Of a stretch of DNA of 64,000 bases, positions 20,549-42,863 are shown piece by piece. This stretch comes from Clostridiales bacterium (GTDB lineage: Bacteria > Bacillota > Clostridia > Christensenellales > CAG-138). How positions within the stretch are numbered: the stretch's first letter is position 1; every line of letters begins with the position of its first letter. The position numbers were made by a program, and so were the translations under genes. Below the pieces are notes generated by a model. It had not been told where the DNA came from, searched no databases, and saw nothing but the letters and a program-made list of their open reading frames with translations. The stretch spans positions 1 through 64,000 of the forward strand of contig CAKJYC010000006.1 in assembly GCA_918244965.1 (NCBI GenBank). Reading direction: 5' to 3'.

Positions 20549-20798
20549 GGAAGCAGCGCCGGCGACGCGGCTGCGCCGCGTACACGAACTGCGTTCTCAT
20601 CGCGCCGAAGAGGGACACGAAAAGCCACCCGTTGAGGGTGGCTTTGGCGTCCCCGGTGCGTTACGGCATCGCTTATATTGAAATGGTATAGGAAGCGATG
20701 CCGAGCACACGGCTGCGCCGTGTATACGAACTGCGTTCTCATCGCGCCGAAGAGGGACACGAAAAGCCACCCGTTGAGGGTGGCTTTGGCGTCCCCGG
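20549..20798. repeat. Tandem duplication (142-bp period) of the region downstream of the tRNA
   Basis: 20584-20656 and 20726-20798 are identical over 73 nt; each is preceded by a perfect 7-bp hairpin (ACGCGGC/GCCGCGT and ACACGGC/GCCGTGT). Confidence 0.85.
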
Positions 20799-20831
20799 CG
20801 CGATTCGAACGCGCGGCCTTTCGCTTAGGAG
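20787..20831 (-). tRNA. 3' fragment of tRNA-Arg(CCU); 5' half replaced by island sequence
   Basis: Minus strand CTCCTAAGCGAAAGGCCGCGCGTTCGAATCGCGCCGGGGACGCCA: anticodon loop (CCT), T arm GCGCG-TTCGAAT-CGCGC, acceptor CGGGGAC-GCCA. Upstream does not supply the TTCGC needed to pair the anticodon stem. Confidence 0.75.
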
Positions 20832-20960
20832 TTGTATTCCGACAATCTGTTAATTATGCCCTAAAACACTGAAAAGTGCCTAATTTAGGGCACTTTTAGC
20901 AATTCCATCCATTACCGTTTTAGTCCATATAGTCCACAAAAAGGTCATTTTGTCCACCCG

Positions 20961-20995
20961 AAAGTTAGTCAAAAGTTAGTCAAAAAGTTAGTCAA
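20961..20995. repeat. Three tandem AAAGTTAGTCA repeats next to the tRNA breakpoint (putative integrase arm sites)
   Basis: aaagttagtcaaaagttagtcaaaaagttagtcaaa within 130 bp of the tRNA fragment. Confidence 0.55.
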
Positions 20996-21289
20996 ATCCA
21001 GATAGGAAGATAAAAGTGCAATAGAGTATTGATATGGATTTGTTTATACCGATGTCCACTCATTATAGGTAAGGCAATAATGAATAATATATTTTATTGA
21101 CAGTGGATATTCTATGTTGAACTGGTGTTTATAACTATTATAACCAATTTAAGATATTTAGGAGGGATAGATCGTTTGGTTGTGAGAAAAGAAAGTGAAA
21201 AGGACAAAATATAGCACGGAGACTTGTACTCACATCCTATACAGTTAGGATATAGACTTATTTTACTAAACTGATTCTGGAGGTTGTTT

Positions 21290-24200
21290 ATGGAAGGATT
21301 ACCTAATCTCGTTCAATCATTTATCAAAGAAAACATGAGCATAAAGACTATTCTAAGTCAGGAGATTATTAGCGAAGGAAAATCAGGCGCACTTGTATTT
21401 CGTATAAAAGTTGAAAGTTCAATTCAAGAACGATCTGGTTGGTATTTTGTGAAATGTACTAATTCAAGTAATGAATGGCATGATCATAATAATGATGAAG
21501 CCACTAAAAGAAAAAAAGCGGACTTCCATTCGCCTAAGTTCAAATATAGATTCGCAGAAATGGTTATGGATGGGGTAGTTGACGGTTGGAATGTAATAAT
21601 CCTAAAGCAAGCAAATGATCGCGCTCAGGGATCTGTTTCCTTGATTAAACTGAAAGATATAAATAAGTTCTCAAGTGTTCTAAAACAGATTTCATACGAA
21701 CTGCTGGAAGAGTGGAATACGAATCCTACTTCTGACGGAAATATACAATCCTTTTTTGAGAATATCCTTGCCTATCGAATGGGCCGGGATGGTGTTTTCA
21801 TTAAGAAATTAAAAGAAATCGGGATAGATAGCAATAAAGCGACGCTGAATCTTGGAGATAAGTATTATCCTAACCCTGCTTATTTTATTGTATTGAATTC
21901 ACCGTTGCTTTGGAATAAGATAAATGGGCAAAGTCAACTACAGTTTTATAAAGGCAACATACACGGAGATTTACATTGCGATAATATTATTTGTGATTGT
22001 GATAATGATCCAATCGAGTATTGTATAATTGATCACGATAGCTATTCAAGCGATGGCTATTTATTGTTCGATCATGCATATCTTGAGTTGTATTGTTATC
22101 TGTTCAAAAATGAATATAAAGAAGAAATCAGTGCTGAAGAATGGATTAATCAAGTAGCGCCTTATATTGTGACAAATACATTGGCTGCTGTTGAAAATGA
22201 TTGTAATCGATGGAACAGAGCCGTACGCAATTCCATTTGCGAGGGCATTAAAAAGTGGGCGGATAAACATCATCCGGGTTTAATTGAAGATGTTGAAATG
22301 CAGTTTAGACTTGCGCGCATTGCAGCAGGAATTAATTTCTTTTCCAAGAGAGCAATTATTGACGAAACAATTATTCGTAAACTATTGTATTATATATGTG
22401 AAAATATACTGTGTTTGTTTACAAGAATTGGGTTAATTTGGGACCATCGCTGCGTCACTTATATAGGAGAAAAGAGTATTGTTCCTTTTAATGAAAGCCA
22501 GATTGAGGTTATCACAGATACAAATCCATCTATAGAGGACAAAGAAAGAGAATTTGAAGAATACATAATTAGCAAGCTCTGTGATGCTAGCTTTGCGGGT
22601 GATTACTTAAAATCAGGATTATCAAGTGAACTTAATCTTGGAAGCAGACTTACGCCGCGATTGTTTGAAAAGTATTTTCTTATAAAAAGAAATAAAACAG
22701 AAACTGAAGAGATTAGTTCGACAATATCCAGACTATTTAGAAGTGATAGCTTTAATATGCTCTGTATAGAAGCAGGGCGAGGTAGCGGAAAAAGTACATT
22801 TGTTAATACAACTCTTTTATCAACAGATAAGGAGTATGAATTTGTTTATCCTCACCCTTGTTTTGATCTGACAAAAAGACGTGTTGGAAATGAGTATTGT
22901 GAATGTGGGATACTATCCGAGTTCGAATCGGTTTATAATAATTTGTTAAAGGATACTACATGGAAACAAAAATACTTTTCAGAGATTCAAAGAATATCAA
23001 TTACTGCTAACGACTTCGGGGGATATTTTAGGAAGAATCTTGATCGATCTGTAAATGCATTGCTTAACAATAGTTTTAAAACACTATTCTTTGACCATGC
23101 CGAAAGAATAAGAGCATCAAGCGATGATACCATCGATATAAAGATTTTCTTATTGTTATATTTAGTAGCATTAGCAACAAAACCACAACCCAAAAGTAAT
23201 AAAGAAACAAAGAATCGCAAAAAACCGATAAGATGGATAATGCTTTTTGACGGAATCGAAACATATGTCACTGCTGATGCAGAAAAAGCAATAAGAACGA
23301 TTTTTGAAATACATGATTTCGTGCGTAATGCATTTGATAGCGTTGGAATGGTTCGAGATTTCTTTACCAAGTTTACATTTATCATTCCGGTTCGTACAGC
23401 TACCAGTTTGAACATAGAGCAAGCAGTAGATAGCAGTGGACGTAAAATTTGGGGAAATCACAAAGAGTACATTATCAAACTTCCCCAAACAGATTTTTCA
23501 ATCGAAGCTTTATTAAAAAAGATAAAATATCTCACAAGTATAAAACGTGATACAAGCGAGCAGGAATATCCCTTGATTAAAAGATGTATCGAGATTGTTT
23601 CCGTCTTAATTCCTCGCCCACTTATTCAAAGCTATATCAACGGGCATATTAAACTCAATGAAATAACGGAAAAGGCTCGTTTTTTTGCTGAGCGTAAACT
23701 TCTGCCATTGTTCAATTATGATCATAGAAATATTGTCGACAAGCTCTATGAGTTTGCCGCACTGGATGCTTCTGATCCAAATATTCAGGCGCTTAGTAGA
23801 CTTGATGAAAACTTAAATAATGAGAATATTGATTCGAACATTGTATCTAATGGCAAGCATATGATTTTTTTACGCAGTATTTTTAACGTATTTCGTAGAT
23901 ATGGATTACTAAATCAAATTGGATATTCCGATTTTGATTATATGCACCAGCATGGGATTGCACGAACGCTATTGAATTTTTTATACTACAGAGAGTTAAA
24001 ATTTAGACTGGATTGCATTCGAAATTCTCAAATTGATGCCGGAGGAGAATTTGCAGGGGTTCCGTTTATTGAATTTTTGGATATGCTTAAGCCTTTTGCT
24101 CAAACAGATATCACGCAGCTAGCAAATATCGTCTATAATATTAGTGCGCTAAATGCGGCTACTGATCCTGTTTATACTTGGTCACATTTACTAATAATCC

Positions 24201-25255
24201 GCGGAATCGAAAAAAGACTTTCCATAGAAAGCTTTGATTTGTTAATTCGTAATTACTATCAGGACAACAATAGAGAACATATGAGCAATTGGTATGTAAA
24301 ACTGTCAGATGCAGGTCTCAGCTTTTCTTCATGGGCGTCAAAACAATTTGAGTTCTTATTGTCTAGATGCGATACAGGATCTACCGCTTTATTTGCAAAA
24401 GATATTATAAATGATGTAGCTATTAAAGATAGCTGTGATCGTGTTAAAGATATTATAAATAAAGAAGGGATAACAAGGCTTATTGAAAATGCTATTATTG
24501 GATGTAAATACTGTAAAAATAATGCATTGCCTTGCAAAACCTGCGACACAATCAACAATGACAAAACTGCGATGGATTGTTCTTTGATTCAAAGATATCA
24601 AGAGTGTTTATTGCTGATCGTTGAAAGCATCGACTATATAGATCGATTCCGTTGCTACATATATCAGGTTGGGAAGGCAAACAATTTACCGAATAACATT
24701 CTTAAGGAGAGAAATAATATGCTTCTCGATGTGATCACAGGTTTTAATGCTTTATTTGATGAACTTGAATCCAAAATCATAAGTAATGTCGATGAAAACA
24801 TGGGTTTTTTAGATAAGATGAACAAGAATACAAGAAAGTATTGGAGATTAAGTGAAGATAATATTAGAAATGTAGATTTTTTGAATTCAAAAGGTAAAAA
24901 GTACATTCAAAGAATCAGAACACCTAGATTCCATAGATGGTATTTATATCCGCCGGCGCATATGCATTTGGTAATAGGTATTTCGCGATTCATTGAAGAA
25001 GCTGTTCCATTATTTGACATGAATAAAAGAATACAGATTGTTAGGAATCGCATTAAGTGTAATGTGTGCAATGAAATCATTGAGAGTAATTTGGAGAATA
25101 GAGAGGAAAAGTGCGAGTGTAAATCGTGCATGATTAGTGGTGGACACAAAAGTCTAATACGTAATGGTAAAATAAAAGATTGGCAGGAGATGAGCGAAGT
25201 AATATATGATAATAAAGAATTCGCTTTCGTCAATGGCAAATGGATTCAGCATTAA
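21290..25255 (+). CDS. Large multidomain protein: kinase/phosphotransferase-like N-terminus + P-loop NTPase + Cys-rich C-terminus
   Basis: KGNIHGDLHCDNIICD...YCIIDHDSYSSDGY (APH/kinase catalytic-loop-like); MLCIEAGRGSGKSTFVN (Walker A); CNVCNEII...KCECKSC zinc-ribbon-like end. Confidence 0.75.
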   Translation: MEGLPNLVQSFIKENMSIKTILSQEIISEGKSGALVFRIKVESSIQERSGWYFVKCTNSSNEWHDHNNDEATKRKKADFHSPKFKYRFAEMVMDGVVDGWNVIILKQANDRAQGSVSLIKLKDINKFSSVLKQISYELLEEWNTNPTSDGNIQSFFENILAYRMGRDGVFIKKLKEIGIDSNKATLNLGDKYYPNPAYFIVLNSPLLWNKINGQSQLQFYKGNIHGDLHCDNIICDCDNDPIEYCIIDHDSYSSDGYLLFDHAYLELYCYLFKNEYKEEISAEEWINQVAPYIVTNTLAAVENDCNRWNRAVRNSICEGIKKWADKHHPGLIEDVEMQFRLARIAAGINFFSKRAIIDETIIRKLLYYICENILCLFTRIGLIWDHRCVTYIGEKSIVPFNESQIEVITDTNPSIEDKEREFEEYIISKLCDASFAGDYLKSGLSSELNLGSRLTPRLFEKYFLIKRNKTETEEISSTISRLFRSDSFNMLCIEAGRGSGKSTFVNTTLLSTDKEYEFVYPHPCFDLTKRRVGNEYCECGILSEFESVYNNLLKDTTWKQKYFSEIQRISITANDFGGYFRKNLDRSVNALLNNSFKTLFFDHAERIRASSDDTIDIKIFLLLYLVALATKPQPKSNKETKNRKKPIRWIMLFDGIETYVTADAEKAIRTIFEIHDFVRNAFDSVGMVRDFFTKFTFIIPVRTATSLNIEQAVDSSGRKIWGNHKEYIIKLPQTDFSIEALLKKIKYLTSIKRDTSEQEYPLIKRCIEIVSVLIPRPLIQSYINGHIKLNEITEKARFFAERKLLPLFNYDHRNIVDKLYEFAALDASDPNIQALSRLDENLNNENIDSNIVSNGKHMIFLRSIFNVFRRYGLLNQIGYSDFDYMHQHGIARTLLNFLYYRELKFRLDCIRNSQIDAGGEFAGVPFIEFLDMLKPFAQTDITQLANIVYNISALNAATDPVYTWSHLLIIRGIEKRLSIESFDLLIRNYYQDNNREHMSNWYVKLSDAGLSFSSWASKQFEFLLSRCDTGSTALFAKDIINDVAIKDSCDRVKDIINKEGITRLIENAIIGCKYCKNNALPCKTCDTINNDKTAMDCSLIQRYQECLLLIVESIDYIDRFRCYIYQVGKANNLPNNILKERNNMLLDVITGFNALFDELESKIISNVDENMGFLDKMNKNTRKYWRLSEDNIRNVDFLNSKGKKYIQRIRTPRFHRWYLYPPAHMHLVIGISRFIEEAVPLFDMNKRIQIVRNRIKCNVCNEIIESNLENREEKCECKSCMISGGHKSLIRNGKIKDWQEMSEVIYDNKEFAFVNGKWIQH

Positions 25256-25303
25256 TCAAGATAAAACTATTGAAAGGAATATCTGCTATCGGCAGGATGA
25301 GTT

Positions 25304-26686
25304 ATGATAGTTTATCGCTATAGAACAATTGAAAATGCATTGAAGGAAATAGAGACAGGAACTTTTCATTTTGCCTCAAGAGAAGAGTTGAATGATCCTA
25401 TTGAAGGATATGTGAGCGTTCATTGGCAAGGGGATAAATCAGCATGGGAGGGATTACTGAGAAACTATATCTGCAGCGTTTATAACGCTGTGGAAATGTT
25501 CTTTTTACAATGCCATGAAGGGAGGATATTCAAGGAAAGCTTAATAATTGATATAGAAAGCTATAATAAGGTACCATTAGGTGGAGTATTAAAAATACTT
25601 GGGGAGACTTTTTTACATGATCCAGCAATCCAAAGCATAGCTTCATTTTACGGCGATAACCTTGTAAGAGTTAATGAAAAAGAACTTCATTATATTCTCC
25701 ATCTTATTCATTTTAAGGCTCTTTCATTATGCTTTCAAATCGATGAGAAAAATGGACTGTTTTCAAAAGATTTAGCTGAGGAACTTTTGAAAACATATCC
25801 TCCATCTGGAGAGATATTCTTTCCGTTTTCACTTATGGAGACAGATAGAGTTGGTGAAAAAGACAGGGAGATGATTATTGATAGTGCAATAAGTACAATG
25901 AATAGTTTTTTTGAACTTCTATTGATTCACCAAAGCATTGACACAAGTGATGGCAATAGAGATAATTTGACATCAATTGCTCAACAGAAAAGAAACTGGA
26001 TGAGGTTAAACCTTGATTATCCAAAAGCATATATTCTGCAATTGAAAGAGATGCTATATCCCAGAAGTTATATTGTGTGCTTTTCTGGGAAAAACGATAA
26101 TTCTGCAATGTGGGGAAATTATGCCAATAATCATCAGGGCGTTTGTTTTATCTATGAAACAGATCAAGACAACAGTTTGAAACTGGTGGATCGCAAGAAA
26201 GGCAATTTGAAGCTCGAAGTAAAACCGGTTATTTATCATGGTGAATTAATCGAACGTAATTTTTATGAAACCATCGGACGAGTTACAATGCAACAAGTTA
26301 GGTCTTGGCTAACCGGCACGGATGGGATAAGTAGCTCGATTGAGGTATTCTCTAATACAGATGAGTGGCGTAGAAGCTATTGGAAAACATATCAGATGAA
26401 AATATATCGAAAGAATAAGGCTTGGGAATATGAGAATGAATATCGAATCGTGATTACGGATTCGTTACATGAGTTTTCGACACGAGATAGTCAGAATCTA
26501 AGATATGATACTGCAGCACTAAAAGGGGTAATTTTCGGAATCAACACATCAGACTATGACAAAAAAAGAATCATAGAGAAGATCAAACATAGTAGTTATT
26601 TGTATCAAAACGTTAGTTACAGTCAAGCCGAATACAACGAGAAAACACAGGCTATTATTGTGCGCAAAGCGCTTAGTCAAAGTTGA
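25304..26686 (+). CDS. DUF2971 family protein
   Basis: IVYRYRTIENALKEIETGTFHFASREELNDPIEG and YIVCFSGKNDNSAMWGNYANNHQGVCFIYE. Confidence 0.75.
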   Translation: MIVYRYRTIENALKEIETGTFHFASREELNDPIEGYVSVHWQGDKSAWEGLLRNYICSVYNAVEMFFLQCHEGRIFKESLIIDIESYNKVPLGGVLKILGETFLHDPAIQSIASFYGDNLVRVNEKELHYILHLIHFKALSLCFQIDEKNGLFSKDLAEELLKTYPPSGEIFFPFSLMETDRVGEKDREMIIDSAISTMNSFFELLLIHQSIDTSDGNRDNLTSIAQQKRNWMRLNLDYPKAYILQLKEMLYPRSYIVCFSGKNDNSAMWGNYANNHQGVCFIYETDQDNSLKLVDRKKGNLKLEVKPVIYHGELIERNFYETIGRVTMQQVRSWLTGTDGISSSIEVFSNTDEWRRSYWKTYQMKIYRKNKAWEYENEYRIVITDSLHEFSTRDSQNLRYDTAALKGVIFGINTSDYDKKRIIEKIKHSSYLYQNVSYSQAEYNEKTQAIIVRKALSQS

Positions 26687-26755
26687 AGAATATAATTATT
26701 CTTCGTATGCTTTATATAAGAATCTATAAATATTCAGAAGAAAAAGAAAGCAGAG

Positions 26756-27886
26756 ATGAAAATGGATCGTATTTTTTCTCCAGTAGGACAAGGATGTTTT
26801 GCAATTGAAAAATTCAGTAAAAAAACAGTTGTTGTTTTTGATTGTGGCACTCTCACAAGAATCGGCAACCAAACACGTACTGACTTCATTAATCAGCGGA
26901 TCAAGGAAGAAATCCATTGTGATGAAATAATCCGGTATGTCTTTATTTCTCATTTGGATATTGACCATGTAAATGGGTTGGCATATCTTTTATGGAACTA
27001 TACGGTTAATGAAGTTGTGCTGCCTTTATTATATGATGAGTCTAAAGAGTTATATCTCGGAAAAAACGCGTTATCAGATAGTGAAGAATTCAATAGGTTA
27101 CGCTTTCTGATTGAGCGACCGGTTGAATTTGTTCAAGAGTATAGCAGATATCATCATACAAAGACTACATTTGTTGCCCCGGTGGATGAATTCGGAATAG
27201 AGCAAAAATGGGATATGTCTACATGCTATTCCGGAAAGGAATTTCACATCAATAAATGGGTATTTGTTCCTTTCAATTTCCAGTACAGAGAGAATACGTT
27301 GAAGCTTAAGAAAAACCTTTTGGATATGGGGGTAAACCTTGATATAATCAAAGATAGAAGCGTAGATATCTTGAAGGATAGTGATTTAGTCATTAGAATA
27401 AAGAAAGCGTACAAAAGGATAGATAATGATTTGAATCAGAATGCAATGACTGTTTATTCGGGGCCCAAAGAATATAGTCACTATCAAACAAAAATGCTTA
27501 CACATGGTATCCCAATAGTATGTGGAAGAAACACACCGAAGAAACTGACTAGAGCAGGTTGCTTGTATACTGGTGATTACAATGCAAGCACTAATGAGAG
27601 ATGGGATAACTTAAAATGCTCTTATAGACCTTATTGGGATAATATTGGATTATTGCAAGTCCCTCATCATGGTTCAGAAGATTGTTATAATGATCAGATG
27701 GGATATGATGATTGCTTGCTGATTATAAATGCGGGAACGAAAAATGATTATCATCATCCCAATCCGTCAGTTTTATATAGTCTTTACAAAACAAATAATA
27801 CTGTTATTTGGGTTAGTGAAGAAGAATCTAGTGCAATGCAGTTCAAAATTCTTAGGCGCAAATCAATAGTAGCCAAAAGAATATAA
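26756..27886 (+). CDS. MBL-fold metallo-hydrolase (ComEC-like)
   Basis: FISHLDIDHVNGL (HxxxDH), YTGDYN, LQVPHHGSEDCYN, INAGTKNDYHHPNPSVL. Confidence 0.8.
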   Translation: MKMDRIFSPVGQGCFAIEKFSKKTVVVFDCGTLTRIGNQTRTDFINQRIKEEIHCDEIIRYVFISHLDIDHVNGLAYLLWNYTVNEVVLPLLYDESKELYLGKNALSDSEEFNRLRFLIERPVEFVQEYSRYHHTKTTFVAPVDEFGIEQKWDMSTCYSGKEFHINKWVFVPFNFQYRENTLKLKKNLLDMGVNLDIIKDRSVDILKDSDLVIRIKKAYKRIDNDLNQNAMTVYSGPKEYSHYQTKMLTHGIPIVCGRNTPKKLTRAGCLYTGDYNASTNERWDNLKCSYRPYWDNIGLLQVPHHGSEDCYNDQMGYDDCLLIINAGTKNDYHHPNPSVLYSLYKTNNTVIWVSEEESSAMQFKILRRKSIVAKRI

Positions 27887-27956
27887 TTACGTCCCATATA
27901 GCTTCTTCTCGTGAATGAACCGTAACGCTATGCTACACAATAAGGAGCGTAGAGTT

Positions 27957-28298
27957 ATGGAACATGAGAGCGAATTGAGACTGCTTGCGGATGCAATCCG
28001 GCAGGCAAGAATCGAAAAGAGAATCTCGCAAGAGAAGCTTGCGGAGATGCTGGATGTCTCGACAACGCACGTCAGACATATCGAAAGCGGACACAGAAAG
28101 CCATCCATCGAAAAATTGGTGTCGCTGTGCCAGATCTTGGACATTTCTTTCGATCAGGTGGTGAAGGGCGAGCCACGTCCGGTTTTGAGCTCTGCGGAAC
28201 GCATCTTGAATTGTGTTGAGAATGCATTTTCCGAAGAAGAACGGAACCTGATTGCCGATCTGATCGAGGCAGCAGCGGACAAAAGGACAATCAAATAA
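27957..28298 (+). CDS. XRE-family HTH transcriptional regulator
   Basis: ADAIRQARIEKRISQEKLAEMLDVSTTHVRHIESGHRKPSIEKLVSLCQILDIS. Confidence 0.9.
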   Translation: MEHESELRLLADAIRQARIEKRISQEKLAEMLDVSTTHVRHIESGHRKPSIEKLVSLCQILDISFDQVVKGEPRPVLSSAERILNCVENAFSEEERNLIADLIEAAADKRTIK

Positions 28299-28352
28299 CA
28301 GATAGCGTACTGGTCCAAAAGGCATTCTTTTTGGATCAGTGCCTTTTTGTTC

Positions 28353-28379
28353 GACAAAGACAGACAAAACTCGACAAAC
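28353..28379. promoter_or_regulatory. Three GACAAA(N) direct repeats with exact 10-bp period upstream of the sigma-factor gene
   Basis: GACAAAGACA-GACAAAACTC-GACAAAC at 28353/28363/28373. Confidence 0.5.
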
Positions 28380-28462
28380 ATTTTACAATTTGACGATGGA
28401 CTTTTCGTGAACTGACGGTGTTTTCTATAGTAGGTTCATGAAAGATCCCGAAAGGAACCCAC

Positions 28463-28990
28463 ATGGCAAGCTCAATCATGAACTTTATTGAGGAGAACTA
28501 TCAGAGTCTCCTCTGGTTTGCTGTTCGCATGACGGGGAACTGGGCGGACGGAGAGGACGTTCTGCAGACGGTTGCAACGAAGATCTGTCTGAAGCAGGAC
28601 GAACTCAAGGACATCGCGCATTGCAAATCCTACCTGATGGTTTGCATCCGCAATGCGACGATCAACCAACGGCGCACGAAAGCGAGGCAAAGAGTGGCTG
28701 ACGAGAGCTATGAAAAACTGAAAGACACCTTTTCCGATCCCGCAATCAAACAGGAATACGAGCTTGTGGAGTGGATCGAGACGCTGGATCATCATCTGGA
28801 GTATTATGATGAGCAATCCCGTAAGGCGTTTATTGCTTACTATGTGGATCAGGTTCCGTTGGAGGAAGTCGCCGCTTCATTAGGACTTACCAAGCGGCAG
28901 ACGACAAAGAAGTTTGAGAGCATGCGCAACTATTTGAAGCATCACCATAAGCACCTGTTTGTGCAGTTGAGCGTTTTGTTATCGATGTAA
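28463..28990 (+). CDS. Sigma-70/ECF-like RNA polymerase sigma factor
   Basis: WFAVRMTGNWADGEDVLQTVATKI and EEVAASLGLTKRQTTKKFESMRNYLK region-4-like HTH. Confidence 0.8.
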   Translation: MASSIMNFIEENYQSLLWFAVRMTGNWADGEDVLQTVATKICLKQDELKDIAHCKSYLMVCIRNATINQRRTKARQRVADESYEKLKDTFSDPAIKQEYELVEWIETLDHHLEYYDEQSRKAFIAYYVDQVPLEEVAASLGLTKRQTTKKFESMRNYLKHHHKHLFVQLSVLLSM

Positions 28991-29006
28991 GAAAGGAACA
29001 TTGCCG

Positions 29007-29852
29007 ATGAAAATGACAAGATTGGAATGGCGTTACCTGCAGCGAATTGCGCTGGATCATCCATACTTTGACACGCACAAGCTCCCTTTGACCGAAAAGG
29101 AAGCAAAAGCGATTGTTGAAGCAAATATCACGATGACCGGCAAGGAATTCGTCGATTCCATCTATGCAAAGCTCGGCATGACCCGTTCGGAGGAAGAAAA
29201 GAAACGCTTTGCGTGGCTGCACAATATAGGGGAACTGTTCACCGTGCCACCGATCCGCAAGATCGCAATCGCGGTTCTTGTTGTCGTGTTGATGACCGTA
29301 TTTTTCGCAGCGACGCCGACCGGTAGAGCAATCGCTGAAAGCGTGATACAGTACTTTGCAACGCTGTTTGATGATGGTAGACTTGTTGTGAATCAAGGCA
29401 GTTATCAGAATTCAATAGAGCTTATTGAAAATACAGATAATTCAGATGACTATGAAAAGCTGGAAAATCAGATCGCAATTGTTTATGTAGACACTTTTGA
29501 TGATTTTACTATTGCAACAGAAAAAACGCCAATCACTTTGCCTCTTTTACATAAGGAACTGTATTACGAATATGATGAGACGATTGATTATTTAGCGCTG
29601 TATGCGGTTTATGAAATGGCAGAGGGGAAGATTATTACTTATCAGATTTGGGATGTAGATGATTGGGCAAGTTCCACTTCGATGGGTTTTATACCATACG
29701 ACACTCTCGACTCTGATAACGATATTTATTATTCGATTGAAGAGGATGGGAAGATTGATATCAAAATAATCAAAAAAGATTCTGTTTTCACAATAGTATC
29801 TAAAGGAAACTATTCTTTGGATGACCTTATCAAGATGCTAAAAGAGAATTGA
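29007..29852 (+). CDS. Single-TM anti-sigma-like protein with DUF4367-type C-terminus
   Basis: KIAIAVLVVVLMTVFFAATPTGRAIAESVIQYF TM segment, C-terminus FTIVSKGNYSLDDLIKMLKEN; directly follows sigma factor. Confidence 0.65.
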   Translation: MKMTRLEWRYLQRIALDHPYFDTHKLPLTEKEAKAIVEANITMTGKEFVDSIYAKLGMTRSEEEKKRFAWLHNIGELFTVPPIRKIAIAVLVVVLMTVFFAATPTGRAIAESVIQYFATLFDDGRLVVNQGSYQNSIELIENTDNSDDYEKLENQIAIVYVDTFDDFTIATEKTPITLPLLHKELYYEYDETIDYLALYAVYEMAEGKIITYQIWDVDDWASSTSMGFIPYDTLDSDNDIYYSIEEDGKIDIKIIKKDSVFTIVSKGNYSLDDLIKMLKEN

Positions 29853-29906
29853 TATCAGCGGGCGCATTTGTAAATGATATAAGCGCCCGCTAGTTCTATC
29901 CTAATA

Positions 29907-30281
29907 CTAGATGTTATATGTTTTTTCGTAGGAATATGTTACTCCTTCTGCTGTATAGCTAAGCCGTAGATGATAAGTTCCAGATGAAAGAGTAACGTTT
30001 TTACTGAGTCCAATTAGTGTATTTGAAGATGTCGTTCCAATGGATGCAATGGAATTATATGATGCATTATATAGTGTCAGCTTTACAAATACTGAGACGC
30101 CTTCTGGATTGTTTATTCTTGCCCACATCTTGTATGTTGAGCCGGAAACATGCTTTAAGCCGAAAGATGCGCCAATATCTGCTCTGACCGGCATCTCAGC
30201 AGTACCGTCCGCAAACGTCGGTAAGGTGACCATCATGCTTATCAATAGTGCAAGCGCGATACATAGGACTTTTCTTTTCAT
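29907..30281 (-). CDS. Small secreted protein (Ig-like beta-rich)
   Basis: Signal peptide MKRKVLCIALALLISMMVTLPTFA; ...VTLSSGTYHLRLSYTAEGVTYSYEKTYNI. Confidence 0.65.
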   Translation of the reverse strand: MKRKVLCIALALLISMMVTLPTFADGTAEMPVRADIGASFGLKHVSGSTYKMWARINNPEGVSVFVKLTLYNASYNSIASIGTTSSNTLIGLSKNVTLSSGTYHLRLSYTAEGVTYSYEKTYNI

Positions 30282-30738
30282 AATGACCTCCAAGAAATGA
30301 ATTTGGGTTACCCCAAATTCAGAGAGACACCGCAAGTCCGATGAAAGTCCATTCGTTTAAAACTATTTTGTTAAAAATAATTAGCTATGTAATGATGTAG
30401 CTGATCTTGAATTATGCCATTCGAAAATTAGACTTTTGGCAAGTTTTATGATTATTTGCCGAGAGTCTATTATCTAATCTGAGATTGGGCCATTTAAATC
30501 CACAATGTATCTCGCAGATAGTACTGTGAATAATGCTGATAAATTGTATCAAAGAAAGAACAATCTTGTGACTGCGGCGTGTTGTATTTAACAATGTTAT
30601 AATCACATAAAGAAGGGAGAAACAACTGGACATTAAGAAACGTGAAGTAAACCATTAGATCTATGCTTTACCGAACCTTTTTATAGCACTGGAGGATTTG
30701 AACAGGTTTTTTGATCAGACACACTATTAGTGAAATTA

Positions 30739-32195: not shown

Positions 32196-33215
32196 ATGAA
32201 ACTAAAAAAGCAATTTGCCGATTTCTACAAAGAGATTCGAATTGATGATGAAACTCATGCTTTGAGGGATAAGAGAGAAGTATTACAAGCTGATATTAAG
32301 GCAAAACTGCCGGGCATTCTCGAAGATCACGACATAACCATTAATAAAAGCGATATTAGATTGATCGATCAAGGTAGTTATAAGTACCATACAACGATAA
32401 AAGCTGATGTTGTGGATCGAGATGTAGCAGTTATGATCCCGTTAAGTACTTCAGATAATACAGATACAAGAAAGATTAAAGGTTATTTGCGGGACGCAAT
32501 TGACATTCCTGCACGCACCGTGGTAATTAAGGAACCCTGTGTCAGGGCGTCATATTACGAAGATGGAAAGGAATGGTTGCATATAGATCTGCCTCTTTAT
32601 GCTGAAGATGGGGATTCAGTATTCCTTGCGAGGGGTAAGGAACACAGCTCGGATTATTCATGGGAAAGCGCAGATCCGGAAGGGTTGAATGATTATCTTT
32701 GCGAGAAGATAAACGGCAATAACCAACTTCGCCGCATCATTTGCTTTATCAAGAAATGGCGAAACGAAAAGTATTCCGGATCAACGAGTGATCATGAAAT
32801 CCCGCCTAGCATAGGGCTAACTCTGTTAGCTTGTGATTGCTTTTCAGAGCAGTCTTCAAGCGAGGGCGATGATGATTTACTCTCTCTTCAGAAGACGATG
32901 AAAGGAATCTTGGACAAATTCTCATATACGTTTGATGGTAATGGGGATCTTATTAGAACTATATCAAGATCCCTTCCTGTAACTCCATATACGGATGTTT
33001 TCAAGAAAATGAAAGATAGCAGCAGTTCTTATATGACAACATTTTACAATAGATTGTCAAAGGCTGTTGACAACCTGACAGATGCTGTAAATGTTGAATC
33101 AGAGCACGATGCTGGAGAATACGTCCAGAAAGTTTTAGGAGAAAGCTTTATAGTTCCGCCTAAGGAAGCGGTGGCGGCACAAGCACAGAATAAAAGGGAG
33201 CATAGCTTTGGATAA
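32196..33215 (+). CDS. CBASS CD-NTase (cyclic oligonucleotide synthase)
   Basis: Nucleotidyltransferase core DQGSYKYHTTIKADVVDRDVAVMIPL...; followed immediately by Cap2/Cap3-like genes. Confidence 0.85.
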   Translation: MKLKKQFADFYKEIRIDDETHALRDKREVLQADIKAKLPGILEDHDITINKSDIRLIDQGSYKYHTTIKADVVDRDVAVMIPLSTSDNTDTRKIKGYLRDAIDIPARTVVIKEPCVRASYYEDGKEWLHIDLPLYAEDGDSVFLARGKEHSSDYSWESADPEGLNDYLCEKINGNNQLRRIICFIKKWRNEKYSGSTSDHEIPPSIGLTLLACDCFSEQSSSEGDDDLLSLQKTMKGILDKFSYTFDGNGDLIRTISRSLPVTPYTDVFKKMKDSSSSYMTTFYNRLSKAVDNLTDAVNVESEHDAGEYVQKVLGESFIVPPKEAVAAQAQNKREHSFG

Positions 33216-34887
33216 GCAAATGACTGCGAAAGAAATCTTAGAATCCTATGATGAGATTACTATAGGTGAGCAGCTCTGTGAAGATACTCTGTTTTTCACG
33301 CTATTTGAAAAGCAGTTTTTGTTTATTGCTCCTTCAAGAGATGATCTTTCATCAGGAGCTGAGATATACCTCTATAACGATAGCTTCCTGGATTATCCCC
33401 ATATTTTGCTTAGAGAAACAAACATTACTGAAGGAAAGGTGCTTCCTAAAGGAACATATCGCTGGGTATGTCTGTTTGAACAAGATAGCATAGTGAATTC
33501 AATCCTCTCATACGATGAAAAAATATATGATTGTATTGATAGGTTAATTGAGCTTCTTAATATGAGTTCAGTAGAAAAAGAGCGGGAGTTTCAGAAGGAA
33601 TTCTTGTACTATTGGAATAGTGAATCCATTGGTGATAACAGTTTTCAAATATATCTTGACCAAGATGATCAGGTCGCAGAAATGGACGTATACTTTAGCA
33701 AGAGTATTGTTCGTCTTACTGACAGCAGAATAGCGCTATCGGATATAGAGGAAACAGTCAAAGGAGAAAGAAGATGGATGCACCATATAGAGAAAGATGC
33801 ATTCTTCATTCCAATAAAAGACTGCAGGGGGGTACTTCCCCCTCATCGCGGTTATAAATGGACAGCAAAAGATCTCCATGAAATCATATATGGGAAACAA
33901 ATAGAACATATCAGTGATGAGTCTTTTGAAAAGATAAAAACTCTTATTCCAAAGACGCAGGATGTTTTGCTCGTGTTTGGGATGCGAACAGAGACGACCA
34001 ATATTGCTTTTGCGTTAAATATGAAATGTAAGAACAGAGTTGGTCATTCATTACTTGAAAAAATCCTTACAGACATAACAGCTGTTGAACCAATGTTTAC
34101 TAAAAGAAAGGATTACTCTTATTTGAGTGAACAGATAGGTAATGATATTGGGGCAAAAAGAAAGAAAGTGCTTCTTGTCGGAGCTGGATCATTAGGGAGT
34201 TATGTAGCTTTAGAACTGGTTAAAAATGGATTTACCTATCTGAAAATTTATGATGATGACACTCTTACAGAAGAAAACACGCTAAGATGGGCATATGAGG
34301 GATATGGCATAGGTGCAAGTAAAACACAAACTCTGAAAATAATGTTGGAATGGCTGCATCCACAAATACTTATAGATTCATGCAATAAAAAACTAGATAC
34401 AGAATCTTTGACGGAAGAACTAAAGGATACGGATATTATTATATTCACAATAGGCAATAGTGATGCACAGCTAAAGTTTAATAAAGTGCTAAATCAACAG
34501 GTGTTTACAAAGCCGGTATTATATGTGTGGCTTGAAGAAGGCGGCTTATACAGTCACATTCTATTTGTTGACTATCGAAAACCAGGCTGTTTTGAATGCT
34601 TATATACTGATACTAGCGGTGAAAAGGTTAATAATAGAGCAAGGAAAAATACAGACTTAGCTGCTGAGAACGGCATGATCCGAAATGGCTGCGGAGGCAC
34701 AAGAGCCGCTTATGGGACATCGATTCTTCTAAAAACGACAGCAGCATTGCTAGATACGTTACACGAAATAGATAGAAATAAACTGACTAAAAATACTTTA
34801 ATTGATATAACACCGACTAGAGTGGGTGCATCTGATATCATATTCCCAATGGAGGCATGTAATTGCTGTGGTAATAATGCAGAATAA
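33208..34887 (+). CDS. cap2: CBASS E2-E1 fusion protein (Cap2, ThiF-like)
   Basis: KKVLLVGAGSLGSYVALELVKNGFTYLKIYDDDTLTEENTLRWAYEGYGIGASKTQTL adenylation domain; conserved CxxC pairs (CFECLYT, CNCCG). Confidence 0.88.
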   Translation: MDKQMTAKEILESYDEITIGEQLCEDTLFFTLFEKQFLFIAPSRDDLSSGAEIYLYNDSFLDYPHILLRETNITEGKVLPKGTYRWVCLFEQDSIVNSILSYDEKIYDCIDRLIELLNMSSVEKEREFQKEFLYYWNSESIGDNSFQIYLDQDDQVAEMDVYFSKSIVRLTDSRIALSDIEETVKGERRWMHHIEKDAFFIPIKDCRGVLPPHRGYKWTAKDLHEIIYGKQIEHISDESFEKIKTLIPKTQDVLLVFGMRTETTNIAFALNMKCKNRVGHSLLEKILTDITAVEPMFTKRKDYSYLSEQIGNDIGAKRKKVLLVGAGSLGSYVALELVKNGFTYLKIYDDDTLTEENTLRWAYEGYGIGASKTQTLKIMLEWLHPQILIDSCNKKLDTESLTEELKDTDIIIFTIGNSDAQLKFNKVLNQQVFTKPVLYVWLEEGGLYSHILFVDYRKPGCFECLYTDTSGEKVNNRARKNTDLAAENGMIRNGCGGTRAAYGTSILLKTTAALLDTLHEIDRNKLTKNTLIDITPTRVGASDIIFPMEACNCCGNNAE

Positions 34888-35416
34888 TAATTGCGTTAAA
34901 ATGGGACTTCCAAATGGGAAAGTAGTTGATATTCTCAGTCCCGTTTTTGATGAAATAGCAAAATGGATTCAAGATGATCCTTATAAGCCGGAAAGTGGCG
35001 GATACATCATAGGCTATCAACACAAAGGGACGGGCAATATATCACTTGAAGAAGTATCACACCCTTATCTTTTGGATACTAAGAATCGCGTGAGATTTGC
35101 TATAAAAGATCCACGGCATCAACTGTTCCTTAGAAAAGCAAAACGTCATAATAGTTATTATATGGGAGTATGGCATACGCATCCTCAAAAAACGCCTGTA
35201 CCATCTGCTATCGATTGGAATGACTGGAATGAAACCTTAAAAGCGGATCGAACAGGATGCCAATATGTGTTTTTCATTATTGCTGGGGTAGATGAATGGC
35301 GGTTATGGGTCGGAGACTTTAAGACAATGATGATTCAAGAAATACACGAATGTCAAAAAGATCCATGCGGCATTTATTATAAAGGAGGATTGTCTGACTG
35401 TGAAAAAGATACTTAA
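34877..35416 (+). CDS. cap3: CBASS JAB/JAMM isopeptidase (Cap3)
   Basis: ESGGYIIG ... GVWHTHPQKTPVPSAIDWND (JAMM HxHxxxx(S)xxD); overlaps cap2. Confidence 0.88.
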   Translation: MQNNNCVKMGLPNGKVVDILSPVFDEIAKWIQDDPYKPESGGYIIGYQHKGTGNISLEEVSHPYLLDTKNRVRFAIKDPRHQLFLRKAKRHNSYYMGVWHTHPQKTPVPSAIDWNDWNETLKADRTGCQYVFFIIAGVDEWRLWVGDFKTMMIQEIHECQKDPCGIYYKGGLSDCEKDT

Positions 35417-36224
35417 TTTCTTATCTAGCAATACTAGGCAAGTTATAGAAACAGTGGCTTTAGTGATTGTTTTTATAGCTCCGTTTTTTGTGGATCTACA
35501 GGAAATGTTCAAAGAATACTTGGAAAGCGATCCTTTGACGCCTGACAATTTTATATGGCACTTCGCAATTAAGGGAGGAAAATACTTTGCTTCTATAATA
35601 CTGTTTATTGCTGTTTTGATTGTAATAAGGAGAATAAATCAAGAGTATGTTATGAATAGTAAACGAGTATACCATAACTATAGTTATGCTTGGTATTGGT
35701 TTTGCGCTAAAGTTCTTGGAATACAGAAATGCAATCTAGCGCTTGTACCAATATACACGCAGTTCAGATTGGCGATTAATGGAACCTTCTGCGATTATCC
35801 GCTGGATGAAACAGAATACCCGGTTATAGAAAACGAGCCGGATAGTAAAGTTACGCAGATTAATTGGGATAATCATAATAGTGAGATAAACCTTATTCTA
35901 GAAGATACCTATGTCATTAGCGAACGACAGATACCAAAGGTAAAGCGGAGATTAAAAACAATAAAAGTGAGTCGTAACAATGGAGATGATCGTTCCGGCC
36001 ATTTTAGTCAAGTATTCATTAATAAGATCACAAACTGTGTTAGAGGGCTAGAGGGTGGATCAATAATAAACGTATTTGCTACAACAAACCCAATGAACAC
36101 TATCCATATAGCGAGAAGGGCATTTGGCTCGGGAGAGAGAGGAAACGTTAAGCACCTATATGTTTTTCAGCAAGGGAATAGTAAAAAATGGCTCTTTAAA
36201 GAAAGGGGGAAAAAGATTTTCTGA
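35400..36224 (+). CDS. CBASS-associated 2TM membrane effector candidate
   Basis: Two N-terminal TM helices (VIETVALVIVFIAPFFV; YFASIILFIAVLIVI) and soluble C-terminal domain; overlaps cap3. Confidence 0.7.
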   Translation: MKKILNFLSSNTRQVIETVALVIVFIAPFFVDLQEMFKEYLESDPLTPDNFIWHFAIKGGKYFASIILFIAVLIVIRRINQEYVMNSKRVYHNYSYAWYWFCAKVLGIQKCNLALVPIYTQFRLAINGTFCDYPLDETEYPVIENEPDSKVTQINWDNHNSEINLILEDTYVISERQIPKVKRRLKTIKVSRNNGDDRSGHFSQVFINKITNCVRGLEGGSIINVFATTNPMNTIHIARRAFGSGERGNVKHLYVFQQGNSKKWLFKERGKKIF

Positions 36225-37764: not shown

Positions 37765-39810
37765 ATGCACATTACAAAGATTCATCTTCAAAACTATAGG
37801 AACTTTAGTGACTTTACAATGGAATTTCATAAAGGGTTGAATGTAATTGTCGGTGCGAACAACTCTGGAAAAACCGGATTGCTTTATGCAATCAAATTGC
37901 TTCGTTCACCAAATGATATAACAATTGAGGATTTTAACAAAAACAACCTGATTGATTTTAGGACTAATTACTTGCAAGATGCGCCAAGTATTATTATTGA
38001 ATACGATATAACACATACCATTATTGAAGACGATACTGAAGACGAGAGTATTATTAGGTTGCTTCCGTTTTTGGGCGTCCAAGGCTTTTCTAATGCGCGT
38101 CGAGAAGTTGATGGTGTAGTGCGGTATGAAATTGCAGCAAGAATCAGAGCGACATACTCTTTAGATGTAAAGTTTTTAAACGATTATAAGACAGAGATTG
38201 ATAAGCTTACTACGTTCAGCGACTATTATGCGGCTTTATCACGATATGTTGAAAAGCATTATTCATGGACATATACCAATGGAATAAGCGATACTAAAGC
38301 AGATCAGAAAGATGTAACGAGTATTTTTGATATTAGATTTATAGAAGCGGAACGTACCAGTGAAGAAGTAAGAAAAGAAACAAAAAAAGAAATTGACAAG
38401 TTCGTTAAGGATCCTGAACAATTGGTCGCAATAGATGAATTAAACAAAAGAGTTTCAGAGGATCTTAAGACAATACTGAAGACAACAATCACAAAACTCG
38501 CAGATCTTTTTGGAAATGAAAACAATGATATTGGACTAAAGAAAGGGAATGTTGCAATCTCATCGACTATTAAAGCGAACGTAAGTGCTTCTGATGCATA
38601 TATTACAGAGGTGCAAGATACACAAAAGGGGTTTACCGTTCCGATAGACCATAATGGGCTTGGTTACAATAACTTAATAAATATTTATATGCTCATTAAG
38701 CTTAATGAGATTAAAATAGGTCGCGATTTCAGAATACTTTGCTTGGAAGAGCCGGAAGCACATCTGCATCCTGCAATGCAATACAAATTATTCAAATATT
38801 TGCGTGATTTGGATAAAAAGGACAAACTAAATCAACAAATCTTCGTTACTACCCATTCAAGTAATATTACAGCTGTGGCTGGATTAGATAATATGTTTAT
38901 GCTTGCGTATAATCGTAATCATAAAACCCCTGATTGCGTGGCCCAGAGTCTAAAAAAGCAGTTTGAGCATCCATATACCGAAGGTGATTTATTAGAGAAA
39001 AGCATCAGCGATAGAAAGGTGGAGGCAAAAAAACATCTATCCAAATTCTTTGATGTCACAAGATCGGACATGTTGTTTGCAGATAAAGTAATACTTGTTG
39101 AAGGTATTGCTGAAAAACTGCTTATGCCTGCATTTATGGAAAAATGCGGAGTACCCTACGAAGATGAGCATATTTCGATTGTTGAGATCGGCGGCAAACA
39201 CTTCGAACACTTCGTTGAATTATTTAACGAAAACAAGGTTAAAAAGAAAGTGCTATGTATCACAGATTGCGATTTCGAGTGGATAAAGGATGGAAATCTA
39301 AGGGCGATTCAAGACTATAAATCTTTTGAAGCTAAGCATATTAAAAAACTACAAACTAATTATACGTTTAATGAGTTTAGAATAGTAACACAGACACATT
39401 ATGGCAGGACATTTGAAGATGAATTGTTCTTATCAAACCGCGAAAATGTATTTTTTAAAAAGCATTTGCTTAACTTGGTTCTGCCAAATCTATTGGTGCG
39501 GTTTGTTGAAGAAAATGGTATTGAGTTGCCTAATTGGATAAGTAAAAGAGAAGAATATGATGGGCGAGTAGCAAAAACACTCGATAAGCTAGTTGACGCT
39601 TATATTCGCCGTGTAGATCAATCTGACGAAAACAGCACCCTGTATGGAGACATCATTATAGCAGAAATCTTTTTACACTACGCCGAAAAACAAAAGGGCG
39701 ATCTCGCGTTGCAAATACTAACAGATTCGTTATTCACGAATGAAGAAGGTGTTCTGCAACTAAATGTTCCAGCATATATTGCGGAGGGGCTAACATGGCT
39801 GAAAAACTGA
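37765..39810 (+). CDS. gajA: OLD-family ATPase/TOPRIM nuclease, Gabija GajA
   Basis: ITKIHLQNYRNFSDFTMEFHKGLNVIVGANNSGKTGLL; LCLEEPEAHLHPAMQ; TOPRIM VILVEGIAEKLLMPAFMEK...VLCITDCD. Confidence 0.85.
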   Translation: MHITKIHLQNYRNFSDFTMEFHKGLNVIVGANNSGKTGLLYAIKLLRSPNDITIEDFNKNNLIDFRTNYLQDAPSIIIEYDITHTIIEDDTEDESIIRLLPFLGVQGFSNARREVDGVVRYEIAARIRATYSLDVKFLNDYKTEIDKLTTFSDYYAALSRYVEKHYSWTYTNGISDTKADQKDVTSIFDIRFIEAERTSEEVRKETKKEIDKFVKDPEQLVAIDELNKRVSEDLKTILKTTITKLADLFGNENNDIGLKKGNVAISSTIKANVSASDAYITEVQDTQKGFTVPIDHNGLGYNNLINIYMLIKLNEIKIGRDFRILCLEEPEAHLHPAMQYKLFKYLRDLDKKDKLNQQIFVTTHSSNITAVAGLDNMFMLAYNRNHKTPDCVAQSLKKQFEHPYTEGDLLEKSISDRKVEAKKHLSKFFDVTRSDMLFADKVILVEGIAEKLLMPAFMEKCGVPYEDEHISIVEIGGKHFEHFVELFNENKVKKKVLCITDCDFEWIKDGNLRAIQDYKSFEAKHIKKLQTNYTFNEFRIVTQTHYGRTFEDELFLSNRENVFFKKHLLNLVLPNLLVRFVEENGIELPNWISKREEYDGRVAKTLDKLVDAYIRRVDQSDENSTLYGDIIIAEIFLHYAEKQKGDLALQILTDSLFTNEEGVLQLNVPAYIAEGLTWLKN

Positions 39811-41735
39811 CTTCAAATACTATTTTAACAAAAGAACAACTAGAAAACAGTTTTAAGGTTTATGCCGGCCCAGGTGCTGGGAAAACACACTTTCTAGTTG
39901 AAAATGTAAAGAATATTGTAACTACACACGAGCTGATTACTAAGAGCCGTTCTCGAAAGGTGGCGTGTATTACTTATACCAACGTAGCTGTAGATGAGAT
40001 TAAAAGGCGGTTGCTGGATTATTCTGATTATGTTGAAACAAATACGATACATGGTTTTATTATTGACAATATAATTAAGCCATTTCAAGAAACATTAAAA
40101 GATGTAATCAAATTGGATTTTGGGCTGACACTCAAGAGCAAAGGCATAATATCTTCACAAGTTGAAGGTATTAGTATCTTGCATGGCGTCGAAAAAGAAG
40201 ACATCTATTGCTATATAAAGTCGTACAAAAAAGGCAAGTATAAGTATGACATCATTGATTATAGCAAAAAGGATATGGGCGAAGTACAAGTGGATAATGC
40301 TGCTTTTATCAAAGCGACACTTGAAAAAACAGAATATTCCCCTACCCTCTCTAGCTCAAATAGAATCCAGATAGGCCATGATATTGCTATAAAGAAGTAT
40401 GTCTGGGATGTTGTACGAAAACTAACACATAACGAGATTCTTTACTTTGGCTACAGGGTATTGCAGATAAATCCGGCAGCGTTGTATGCTATTAGGGTGA
40501 AGTACCCTTTCATTTTTGTTGATGAGTTTCAAGACACAAATCCATTACAAACGTTACTGCTGAAACTGATAGGAGAGAAATCGACTCGCATAGGTGTGGT
40601 AGGAGATATTGCCCAATCCATATATAGTTTTCAAGGGGCAAAACCAAGTGATTTTTTAAACTTTTGCATTCACAGAGAAAATGATAAAATATACTCAATT
40701 GATGGAAACAGAAGATCAACTTCTAATATTGTCAACTTTTGCAATTTCATCCGACAGTCTGATACGACAATTCAGCAAACAAGCATAAAGGCTTATCTTG
40801 ATGAAGATAGTAAGAAAAACGCTGAAACAAAGGCTGTTCATTTCTTACTTGGAGATTCTCCTGCTGTAATGGATACCATTGCTGCTATAGTATCTGCTGG
40901 CGGTGCGGTGCTTACACGTTCGTGGGCTGCAGCATTTAATTATATTCAGGGCATTAATGAGACGCAAACAAAGCTTTTGAAAAAAATCTATAACTCGTAT
41001 TACAACACTTCTATTCAGATTCGAGATGAGATATCAGAGCAGAACAATGTTACATGGGTAAGGGCTTTTCGCTTTATCTTTAGTTTGTATAACAGCTATT
41101 CTTCTGGTTCTTTCATAGATATGATTAGAGCAATCAAAATGGTTGCAGATATTGATATCAAGGCCCTCACTCCAAAGCTGCTTTTTGAATTCGATAAGCT
41201 GGCAACTCATGTTTTCTCTAGAATCACTACACGTTCGTTAACCGTGAAAGTTATTGATTCGTTTAACGATGAAATTAAGAAGAATGATTTTGTAAACATT
41301 AGGAAACTATTAAACCCCGAGGGATCGTTTGCGATCTGTACTTTTGATGAAGAGGAAAGAGAAGAACGTGTTGAAACTATCAGCAAGTTAGAGTGGGACA
41401 CGTCTATTAGACTGTTTACTGAAGTTTTTGCAGAGAAAAGTAAATATATGACAGTGCATCAAGCAAAGGGTCGGGAGTGGGATAGTGTTATTGTTAGCAT
41501 AGAACCTGGAAAGTACGATCCAATTAAGCTGCTGAATGTGTTTACCGATCCCCATATAGTAGAGGAGAATTCCTCTGATGAATTTGTTAGAATGTTCTAT
41601 GTTGCATGCAGCCGTGCAATTCAAGATTTATATATCCATATCAGTTCTGGATGTACAATGCAACAAATAGAGAGGAGTTTGAAATCCTTTATTTCAATAA
41701 CAGGGCTGTATTTCGATTATGAATTTATAAGTTGA
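39795..41735 (+). CDS. gajB: UvrD/PcrA-like helicase, Gabija GajB
   Basis: VYAGPGAGKTHFLVENV, ACITYTNVAVDEIKRRL, FIFVDEFQDTNPLQ, GDIAQSIYSFQGA, MTVHQAKGREWDSVIV; overlaps gajA. Confidence 0.87.
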   Translation: MAEKLTSNTILTKEQLENSFKVYAGPGAGKTHFLVENVKNIVTTHELITKSRSRKVACITYTNVAVDEIKRRLLDYSDYVETNTIHGFIIDNIIKPFQETLKDVIKLDFGLTLKSKGIISSQVEGISILHGVEKEDIYCYIKSYKKGKYKYDIIDYSKKDMGEVQVDNAAFIKATLEKTEYSPTLSSSNRIQIGHDIAIKKYVWDVVRKLTHNEILYFGYRVLQINPAALYAIRVKYPFIFVDEFQDTNPLQTLLLKLIGEKSTRIGVVGDIAQSIYSFQGAKPSDFLNFCIHRENDKIYSIDGNRRSTSNIVNFCNFIRQSDTTIQQTSIKAYLDEDSKKNAETKAVHFLLGDSPAVMDTIAAIVSAGGAVLTRSWAAAFNYIQGINETQTKLLKKIYNSYYNTSIQIRDEISEQNNVTWVRAFRFIFSLYNSYSSGSFIDMIRAIKMVADIDIKALTPKLLFEFDKLATHVFSRITTRSLTVKVIDSFNDEIKKNDFVNIRKLLNPEGSFAICTFDEEEREERVETISKLEWDTSIRLFTEVFAEKSKYMTVHQAKGREWDSVIVSIEPGKYDPIKLLNVFTDPHIVEENSSDEFVRMFYVACSRAIQDLYIHISSGCTMQQIERSLKSFISITGLYFDYEFIS

Positions 41736-41876: not shown

Positions 41877-42863
41877 GTGAATATGGAATATATAGGAACA
41901 CAATATCGGATTACTATTGATATGCGTGAGCAGTTGAACAAACTTGCGTATCAATGCCTTAAGGACTTTCAGTCTTATCATAATTGTCATCTGTCAAATT
42001 TAAAGGAAGAGAAAGCCTTATATCAATGGTTTTTATTACAATCTAAGGTATTATCGAAAAAATGCAGAAAAATAGAGAAAGCCAAAGAATTTATTTGTCC
42101 TGATGGGATGCAATCGCAATTAGATGGTTTTGAAAAGGCGGTAAGAACAGGGCAGGATCTTATTCGCTATATGTCGCGTAATGTACTGGATGTGGACCTT
42201 GAGGATAAAATGTTTAGTGATTGGAGATTTTTGCACTTTCATCTTTCTAATCCATATTCATTGCACCCTGTGGACAAAAGATTTCTAAAAAGAAGCGAGT
42301 GTCTACTAATAGCATATGTAGATTATCTTGATGACAGTACGGTTTATTTTCTTCAAATAGTACCGCATATTAAAGATACATGGACAAATGATAATCTAAT
42401 TCGTATTCTGGTCGATAATTGGCCAATAATGATGAAGAAATATGTATTTGAAGGGTCATTAACAGCAACAATCAAGGGCAAAGACCGAAGTTTATTGCGC
42501 GAGAACAATATTAATTCGGCAGTAGACTTGGGGGATGGAAGAGTTGTTATTGGCCCAGGATTAGGGGTTACGGGGATTGGAGCATCAACTGCAGCTGAGC
42601 TTAAGAGCATGAATCTAGGAAATAGAGTGCAGTTTATAGAAATGAGTATTGGGGAGAATGTGGATACTGTCGGTGAACTAATCCACTGGAAACTTCAAAA
42701 TGAGCAAACTGCTTATCGGTTGAAATTGGAAAAATTATTAAACGCACATACCGCTTGTTTTCAAGTCGAAGGAACGCCAGCTTATCTTGGAGTGAATCAT
42801 AATCAATTCATCGTTGCAGATAATATGGAGGACGCAATTCGAGAATTAGCTTTAAATCGATAA
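41877..42863 (+). CDS. Conserved-looking hypothetical protein in defence island
   Basis: 328 aa; DWRFLHFHLSNP...LKRSECLLIAYVDYLDDSTVYFLQIVPHIKDTWTNDNLIRILVDNWP motif; no recognised domain. Confidence 0.6.
   Translation: MNMEYIGTQYRITIDMREQLNKLAYQCLKDFQSYHNCHLSNLKEEKALYQWFLLQSKVLSKKCRKIEKAKEFICPDGMQSQLDGFEKAVRTGQDLIRYMSRNVLDVDLEDKMFSDWRFLHFHLSNPYSLHPVDKRFLKRSECLLIAYVDYLDDSTVYFLQIVPHIKDTWTNDNLIRILVDNWPIMMKKYVFEGSLTATIKGKDRSLLRENNINSAVDLGDGRVVIGPGLGVTGIGASTAAELKSMNLGNRVQFIEMSIGENVDTVGELIHWKLQNEQTAYRLKLEKLLNAHTACFQVEGTPAYLGVNHNQFIVADNMEDAIRELALNR

Follow-up and report, generated by a model that had tools for sequence, protein, structure and literature searches.

MBL nucleases from the Hachiman, AVAST and Canu systems have inserted segments that occlude the active site, and cleavage of these by a partner protease opens it (Tuck et al., 2025, PMC12799240); such gated pro-nucleases are known from AVAST type 1 (Avs1a), Hachiman (HamM), Lamassu, DRT and Canu (CanC) (PMC12799240). 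TCAD9 proteins, named in PMC10910872, belong to vWA-MoxR-VMAP ternary systems (PMC7159879), and some active APH-type kinases have been reported among the effectors of those systems (PMC7159879; PMC10910872). Among the papers searched, a single genome re-annotation mentions DUF2971. Here, we compare these systems with a block of three genes from a Clostridiales bacterium, located in a 64,000-nt stretch of contig CAKJYC010000006.1 (hereafter the window) and encoding a kinase-fused NTPase (gene 1), a DUF2971 protein (gene 2) and a ComEC-like MBL protein (gene 3). The block matched no complete named system, in agreement with an earlier note on this sequence that had recognised no described system of this composition, and what it resembles is a single, chance grouping of defence cargo more than an established three-part immune system.

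Open reading frame analysis revealed three intact, co-directional genes on the + strand: gene 1 (21290–25255; 1321 aa), gene 2 (25304–26686; 460 aa) and gene 3 (26756–27886; 376 aa), separated by gaps of 48 and 69 nt. For gene 1, alternative starts were found at TTG 21284 and ATG 21290, with a GGAGG at 21279–21283 preceding the ATG. Neither gap contained a + strand terminator-like site, the first such site downstream of gene 3 being at 28307, and because the gaps are also short the sequence indicates that the three genes are probably co-transcribed; this tight packing suggests co-regulation and counts against an account of the genes as separate cargo. Horizontal acquisition of the block is supported by its GC content (34%, versus 55% in the adjoining chromosome).

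Judged by its motifs, gene 1 encodes a very rare, predicted ATP-binding protein or NTPase. Its N-terminal ~400 residues (~27–400) form an APH-like kinase, which contains HGDLHCDN...IDHDSY and matches TCAD9 (PF19974) at residues 183–267 with 41.5 bits against a Pfam cut-off of 40 (E = 1.2e-10), a partial match spanning ~75 of 429 profile positions. A Ruegeria plasmid protein (833 aa) matches this kinase with 22% identity over 401 columns, keeping the GKSGA loop and HGDLH. The central ~800 residues (~420–1220; 22547–24946, + strand) make up a P-loop core with the motifs EAGRGSGKST (Walker A), RWIMLFDGIE and FTFIIPVRTATS, while the Cys-rich C-terminus (residues 1249–1304) belongs to DUF7695 (PF24749; E = 1.7e-11), a domain found elsewhere in small standalone proteins from related genomes. 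The catalytic and Walker A motifs singled out in the earlier note were present as claimed, and its Cys-rich clusters correspond to DUF7695.

An APH-like TCAD9 kinase scoring above the Pfam cut-off recalls the vWA-MoxR-VMAP systems, but no vWA, MoxR or VMAP was detected among genes 1–3 or the adjacent genes scanned, and the kinase is here fused to an unrelated NTPase core. Gene 1 also resembles the STAND/NACHT NTPases (Avs, bNACHT) in being a large, island-borne P-loop protein whose terminal domains are exchangeable, and its Walker A, DGIE and PVRTATS motifs recall theirs; however, no Pfam STAND or NACHT model matched it and profile comparison aligned the P-loop only, with no likeness beyond, which leaves membership of this class unsupported. 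The comparison with the STAND NTPase of AVAST type 1 likewise comes down to a P-loop core that lacks a STAND match and whose AlphaFold model, built from a two-sequence alignment, reached a pLDDT of only 31.6 and was discarded.

The gene 1 core has one detectable relative, which is 34–37% identical and comes from Clostridia bacterium RGIG5933 (JAFWOT010000025.1; genome G203). This protein shares the core alone: it carries neither the TCAD9 kinase nor DUF7695, and its C-terminus is HD-like (Pfam HD E = 0.087, below the cut-off). There is no DUF2971 or MBL gene in its neighbourhood, where a recombinase, a PDC-S56 candidate and a tmRNA adjoin. Keeping the core while swapping the ends is what one would expect of a switch protein, and we infer from this pair of sequences that gene 1 may be one. 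Two other kinds of match were set aside: that in genome G181 was to the Walker A of an ABC transporter, and matches from the order search lying outside the core were short DUF7695 proteins or fragments. In G203 (L011 14182–16191, − strand), the defence candidate near the core relative is a very strong PDC-S56 match (4e-192) and sits with a serine recombinase at the tmRNA.

Gene 2, which the earlier note had assigned to DUF2971, matched that family above the cut-off (PF11185; E = 2.2e-8) and bears a helical insert at ~45–249. Across 22 aligned sequences, the positions YRxR, LNDPxEG, CF, W270/Y273 and WxxExExR were invariant or nearly so, and such conservation suggests that the DUF2971 protein is an enzyme. 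A reading as an ADP-ribosyltransferase (R5/R7, E377-x-E379) stays unproven: Foldseek searches with the AlphaFold model (pLDDT 83.3) yielded no match below 1e-3 in the PDB or BFVD. Profile comparison with the FRG protein of the same island was also negative. The PADLOC candidate PDC-S31 was matched at E = 9e-24, although PDC-S31 is a candidate model whose profiles span 208–273 positions against the 460 aa of gene 2. PDC-S31 relatives are organised as single genes, whereas gene 2 lies between two other genes in an operon-like array. Prophages and plasmids carry full-length relatives (~470–490 aa) singly as cargo, and DUF2971 relatives lie among phage tail genes or adjoin restriction systems. In several related prophages (L050, L053, L055, L058, L059 and L065), the DUF2971 gene occupies the same spot with the same tail genes adjoining, which is likely to be a cargo hotspot.

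The identification of gene 3 as a ComEC-like MBL hydrolase held up: Lactamase_B (PF00753) matched at E = 4e-6 and the family profile retrieved ComEC structures at ~1e-10. Its metal motifs (SHLDIDH at residues 65–71, GD at 273–274, PHHG at 303–306 and HP at 334–335) are intact, with SH..DH, GD and PHHG invariant in six relatives. From HxxxDH to HHG, gene 3 measures 238 residues (232–302 across its family), compared with 120 in a ComEC-like protein of genome G239 and ~128, read off the alignment, in ComEC structure 9ic4, so that relative to ComEC-like spacing ~110 extra residues are inserted between the metal motifs. By analogy, this insertion would be the region corresponding to the gates of Avs1a and HamM. 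Gene 3 thus shares with the gated MBLs a ComEC-like MBL of ~42 kDa, intact metal motifs, a long insertion between motif 1 and GD/PHHG and proximity to a P-loop NTPase gene. It differs in that no protease family, trypsin- and caspase-like proteases included, was recognised by Pfam or NCBIfam in genes 1–3. Assignment to AVAST type 1 is further opposed by the absence of a trypsin-like protease partner and a score of 21.2 bits against an Avs1a cut-off of 420; for 6A-MBL, the score was 22 bits against a cut-off of 220. As evidence, the Avs1a search was rejected, since that model lacks specificity and picks up ComEC-like MBLs nearly everywhere. Likeness to Lamassu in its LmuA MBL form is restricted to the LmuA match of gene 3 (E = 7e-7), with no SMC-like LmuB among the neighbours scanned.

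Relatives of gene 3 stand alone in prophages, adjoin type I restriction systems or DNA methylases, or follow a NACHT NTPase, the last in Pseudomonas putida p716811-VIM. The gene-3-type MBLs at L066–L071 are solitary prophage genes, with no protease or NTPase recognised next to them; the related gated nucleases have been described as protease-dependent.

The block lies at one end of a mobile element of ~72 kb, situated between two tRNA-Arg(CCT)-derived copies. The earlier note had placed it beside a tRNA breakpoint; no complete tRNA was found within the 64,000-nt window, but 20787–20831 (− strand), the element's left att copy, is the 3′ 45 nt of tRNA-Arg(CCT) and is identical to 93051–93095 of the same contig, where the intact gene occupies 93051–93127. 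A tyrosine integrase is encoded at 44798–45934 (− strand), and relaxase-like and ParA/ParB-like genes, recognised by eye only, lie at 72.9–74.3 and 90.8–92.6 kb. Two 117-nt direct repeats, 90% identical, are present at 20549–20807, just before the tRNA-derived att copy.

On its left, the block is bounded by an att-adjacent sequence (20815–20979), which according to blastn recurs past the intact tRNA at 93148–93311 (89%) and is also present in another genome of the genus (L029). On its right lies a block of HTH, ECF-sigma and DUF4179-like genes (27858–30350), with a paralogous copy at 93796–96277 on the same contig (75%; L039). The slot between them (20996–27857) holds genes 1–3, and at 93 kb the same blocks enclose a different insert of ~485 nt. 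Because both flanks recur beyond the intact tRNA around different contents, we consider that genes 1–3 occupy a single variable slot for cargo. Genome G099, from the same genus, also has this att block, but all that comes after it there is a 144-nt piece left over from gene 3 (80% identity), close to a relative of the phosphatase gene found next to the window's block; these contents suggest that the slot turns over quickly. Separately, the paralogous blocks near both element ends suggest that the tRNA harbours a tandem arrangement, either of two related elements or of element ends.

A defence context for genes 1–3 is well supported, and the CBASS, Gabija and FRG neighbours named in the earlier note were all confirmed. 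On the + strand, the island contains CBASS (cyclase, E1-E2, JAB and 2TM effector; 32196–36224), Gabija GajA/GajB (37765–41735), a protein with a PD-T4-7 match directly after Gabija (41877–42863; 3e-32) and a SMEK-NACHT-pentapeptide STAND NTPase of 1126 aa (59661–63041); on the − strand, it contains a Kiwa-like KwaB (PF16162; 2e-34) with a possible KwaA alongside, the latter candidate having no Pfam match (57843–59418). The FRG gene belongs to the same island. A 29-nt segment of the SMEK-NACHT gene recurs without mismatch immediately upstream of the gene 3 remnant in G099 (L029 9329–9357).

Recurring linkage was sought in evenly drawn sets of genomes from the order (297), the phylum (399) and the family (103). 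The gene 1 core was searched for in all three sets and in collection scans based on short conserved patterns; genes 2 and 3 were searched for in the order genomes. Outside its own genome, the core was found in 1/297 order genomes and 1/103 family genomes—G203 in both cases—and in none of the 399 phylum genomes. Within the order set, gene 2 occurred in no genome besides its own, and full-length gene 3 occurred elsewhere only in G294, where it stood alone. The collection of isolated phages held no relative of gene 1, 2 or 3. Viral-contig profile scans, plasmid relatives and G294 supplied the foreign loci: 28 for DUF2971 (23 proviral and five plasmid), none with an MBL or gene 1 neighbour, and 16 for MBL (11 proviral, five of them partial matches only, four plasmid and one chromosomal, in G294), none with DUF2971, in flanks of at most 8–9 kb that were often cut. 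No locus outside the source genome contained two of the three families in HMM searches of all DNA examined, and DUF2971 and MBL never co-occurred across their 28 and 16 foreign loci. With two gene 1 cores known, the linkage of that gene is not judgeable statistically; the DUF2971 and MBL families occur apart elsewhere and, if active, are evidently able to act without the other two. A single obligate three-gene system is thus not supported, nor is the earlier note's reading of the trio as one system, for the DUF2971 and MBL genes are separate cargo in other elements and the trio showed no recurring linkage in anything searched, an outcome that the note itself had named as speaking against its proposal.

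On balance, we incline towards reading genes 1–3 as a block of defence cargo gained by horizontal transfer, lying in the variable slot by the tRNA-Arg att end of an integrative element, assembled from separately circulating parts and probably co-transcribed. Gene 3, whose anatomy is that of a ComEC-like MBL nuclease with a long insertion, would have its active site covered until triggered and, once active, would degrade DNA and stop infection. Gene 1 would act as an ATP-dependent switch with a constant P-loop core and exchangeable ends (TCAD9 kinase and Cys-rich domain here, HD-like C-terminus in the relative), sensing infection and most likely acting through its own kinase, by licensing gene 3, or both. 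Lying between them, gene 2 would be an autonomous single-gene DUF2971 effector, its autonomy being supported by its context elsewhere.

The same arrangement might be expected of a genuine three-component system, in which gene 1 senses phage and its ATP hydrolysis and kinase switch on the DUF2971 protein and the MBL nuclease together: the genes are adjacent, co-directional and closely spaced, have no terminator between them, share the same low GC content and have one cargo slot to themselves. Yet neither the three genome sets (297 from the order, 399 from the phylum and 103 from the family) nor the collection scans yielded a second example (covering the gene 1 core, with genes 2 and 3 in the order set), the partner genes were never together elsewhere and the gene 1 relative lacks both, so that we regard this as unlikely, at perhaps one chance in a handful. 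Somewhat less probable still is a two-part system of gene 1 and gene 3, after the manner of the STAND NTPase and MBL of AVAST type 1, with an unrelated DUF2971 gene in between. The P. putida gene 3 relative downstream of a NACHT NTPase, the weak scores with Avs1a and 6A-MBL, a motif spacing that fits a gated nuclease and the 29-nt identity abutting the G099 remnant all point this way, although that identity may be a meaningless recombination scar, an intervening gene is unusual for a pair, the gene 1 relative has no MBL, most MBL relatives stand alone and the trypsin or caspase domain that activates known gated nucleases was not found in genes 1–2. A functional pair is possible on the strength of the anatomy and one NACHT-MBL neighbourhood.

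We give similarly little credence to a bolder version, in which gene 1 would found a class of immune switches, so far unrecognised, that join a kinase to an NTPase; these would license a gated MBL nuclease of the ComEC type by protease-free means such as phosphorylation, and DUF2971 would be the second effector. That genes 1–3 are instead general element cargo, serving regulation, stress or competition rather than phage defence, appears very improbable: the TCAD9-like Ruegeria protein does lie among ordinary metabolic genes, but the block is packed in with CBASS, Gabija, Kiwa-like, NACHT and FRG genes, the DUF2971 gene matches the model of a defence candidate and has relatives that repeatedly adjoin restriction systems, and MBL relatives adjoin type I restriction systems and DNA methylases.

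Even if the parts of this defence-cargo block act independently, DUF2971 is now documented as recurrent single-gene prophage cargo, and gene-3-type MBLs standing alone without a recognisable protease raise the question of what restrains such nucleases. Should the three genes function as one unit, the block would contain a gated nuclease released by an NTPase or kinase instead of a protease, and would extend the mechanism described in 2025.
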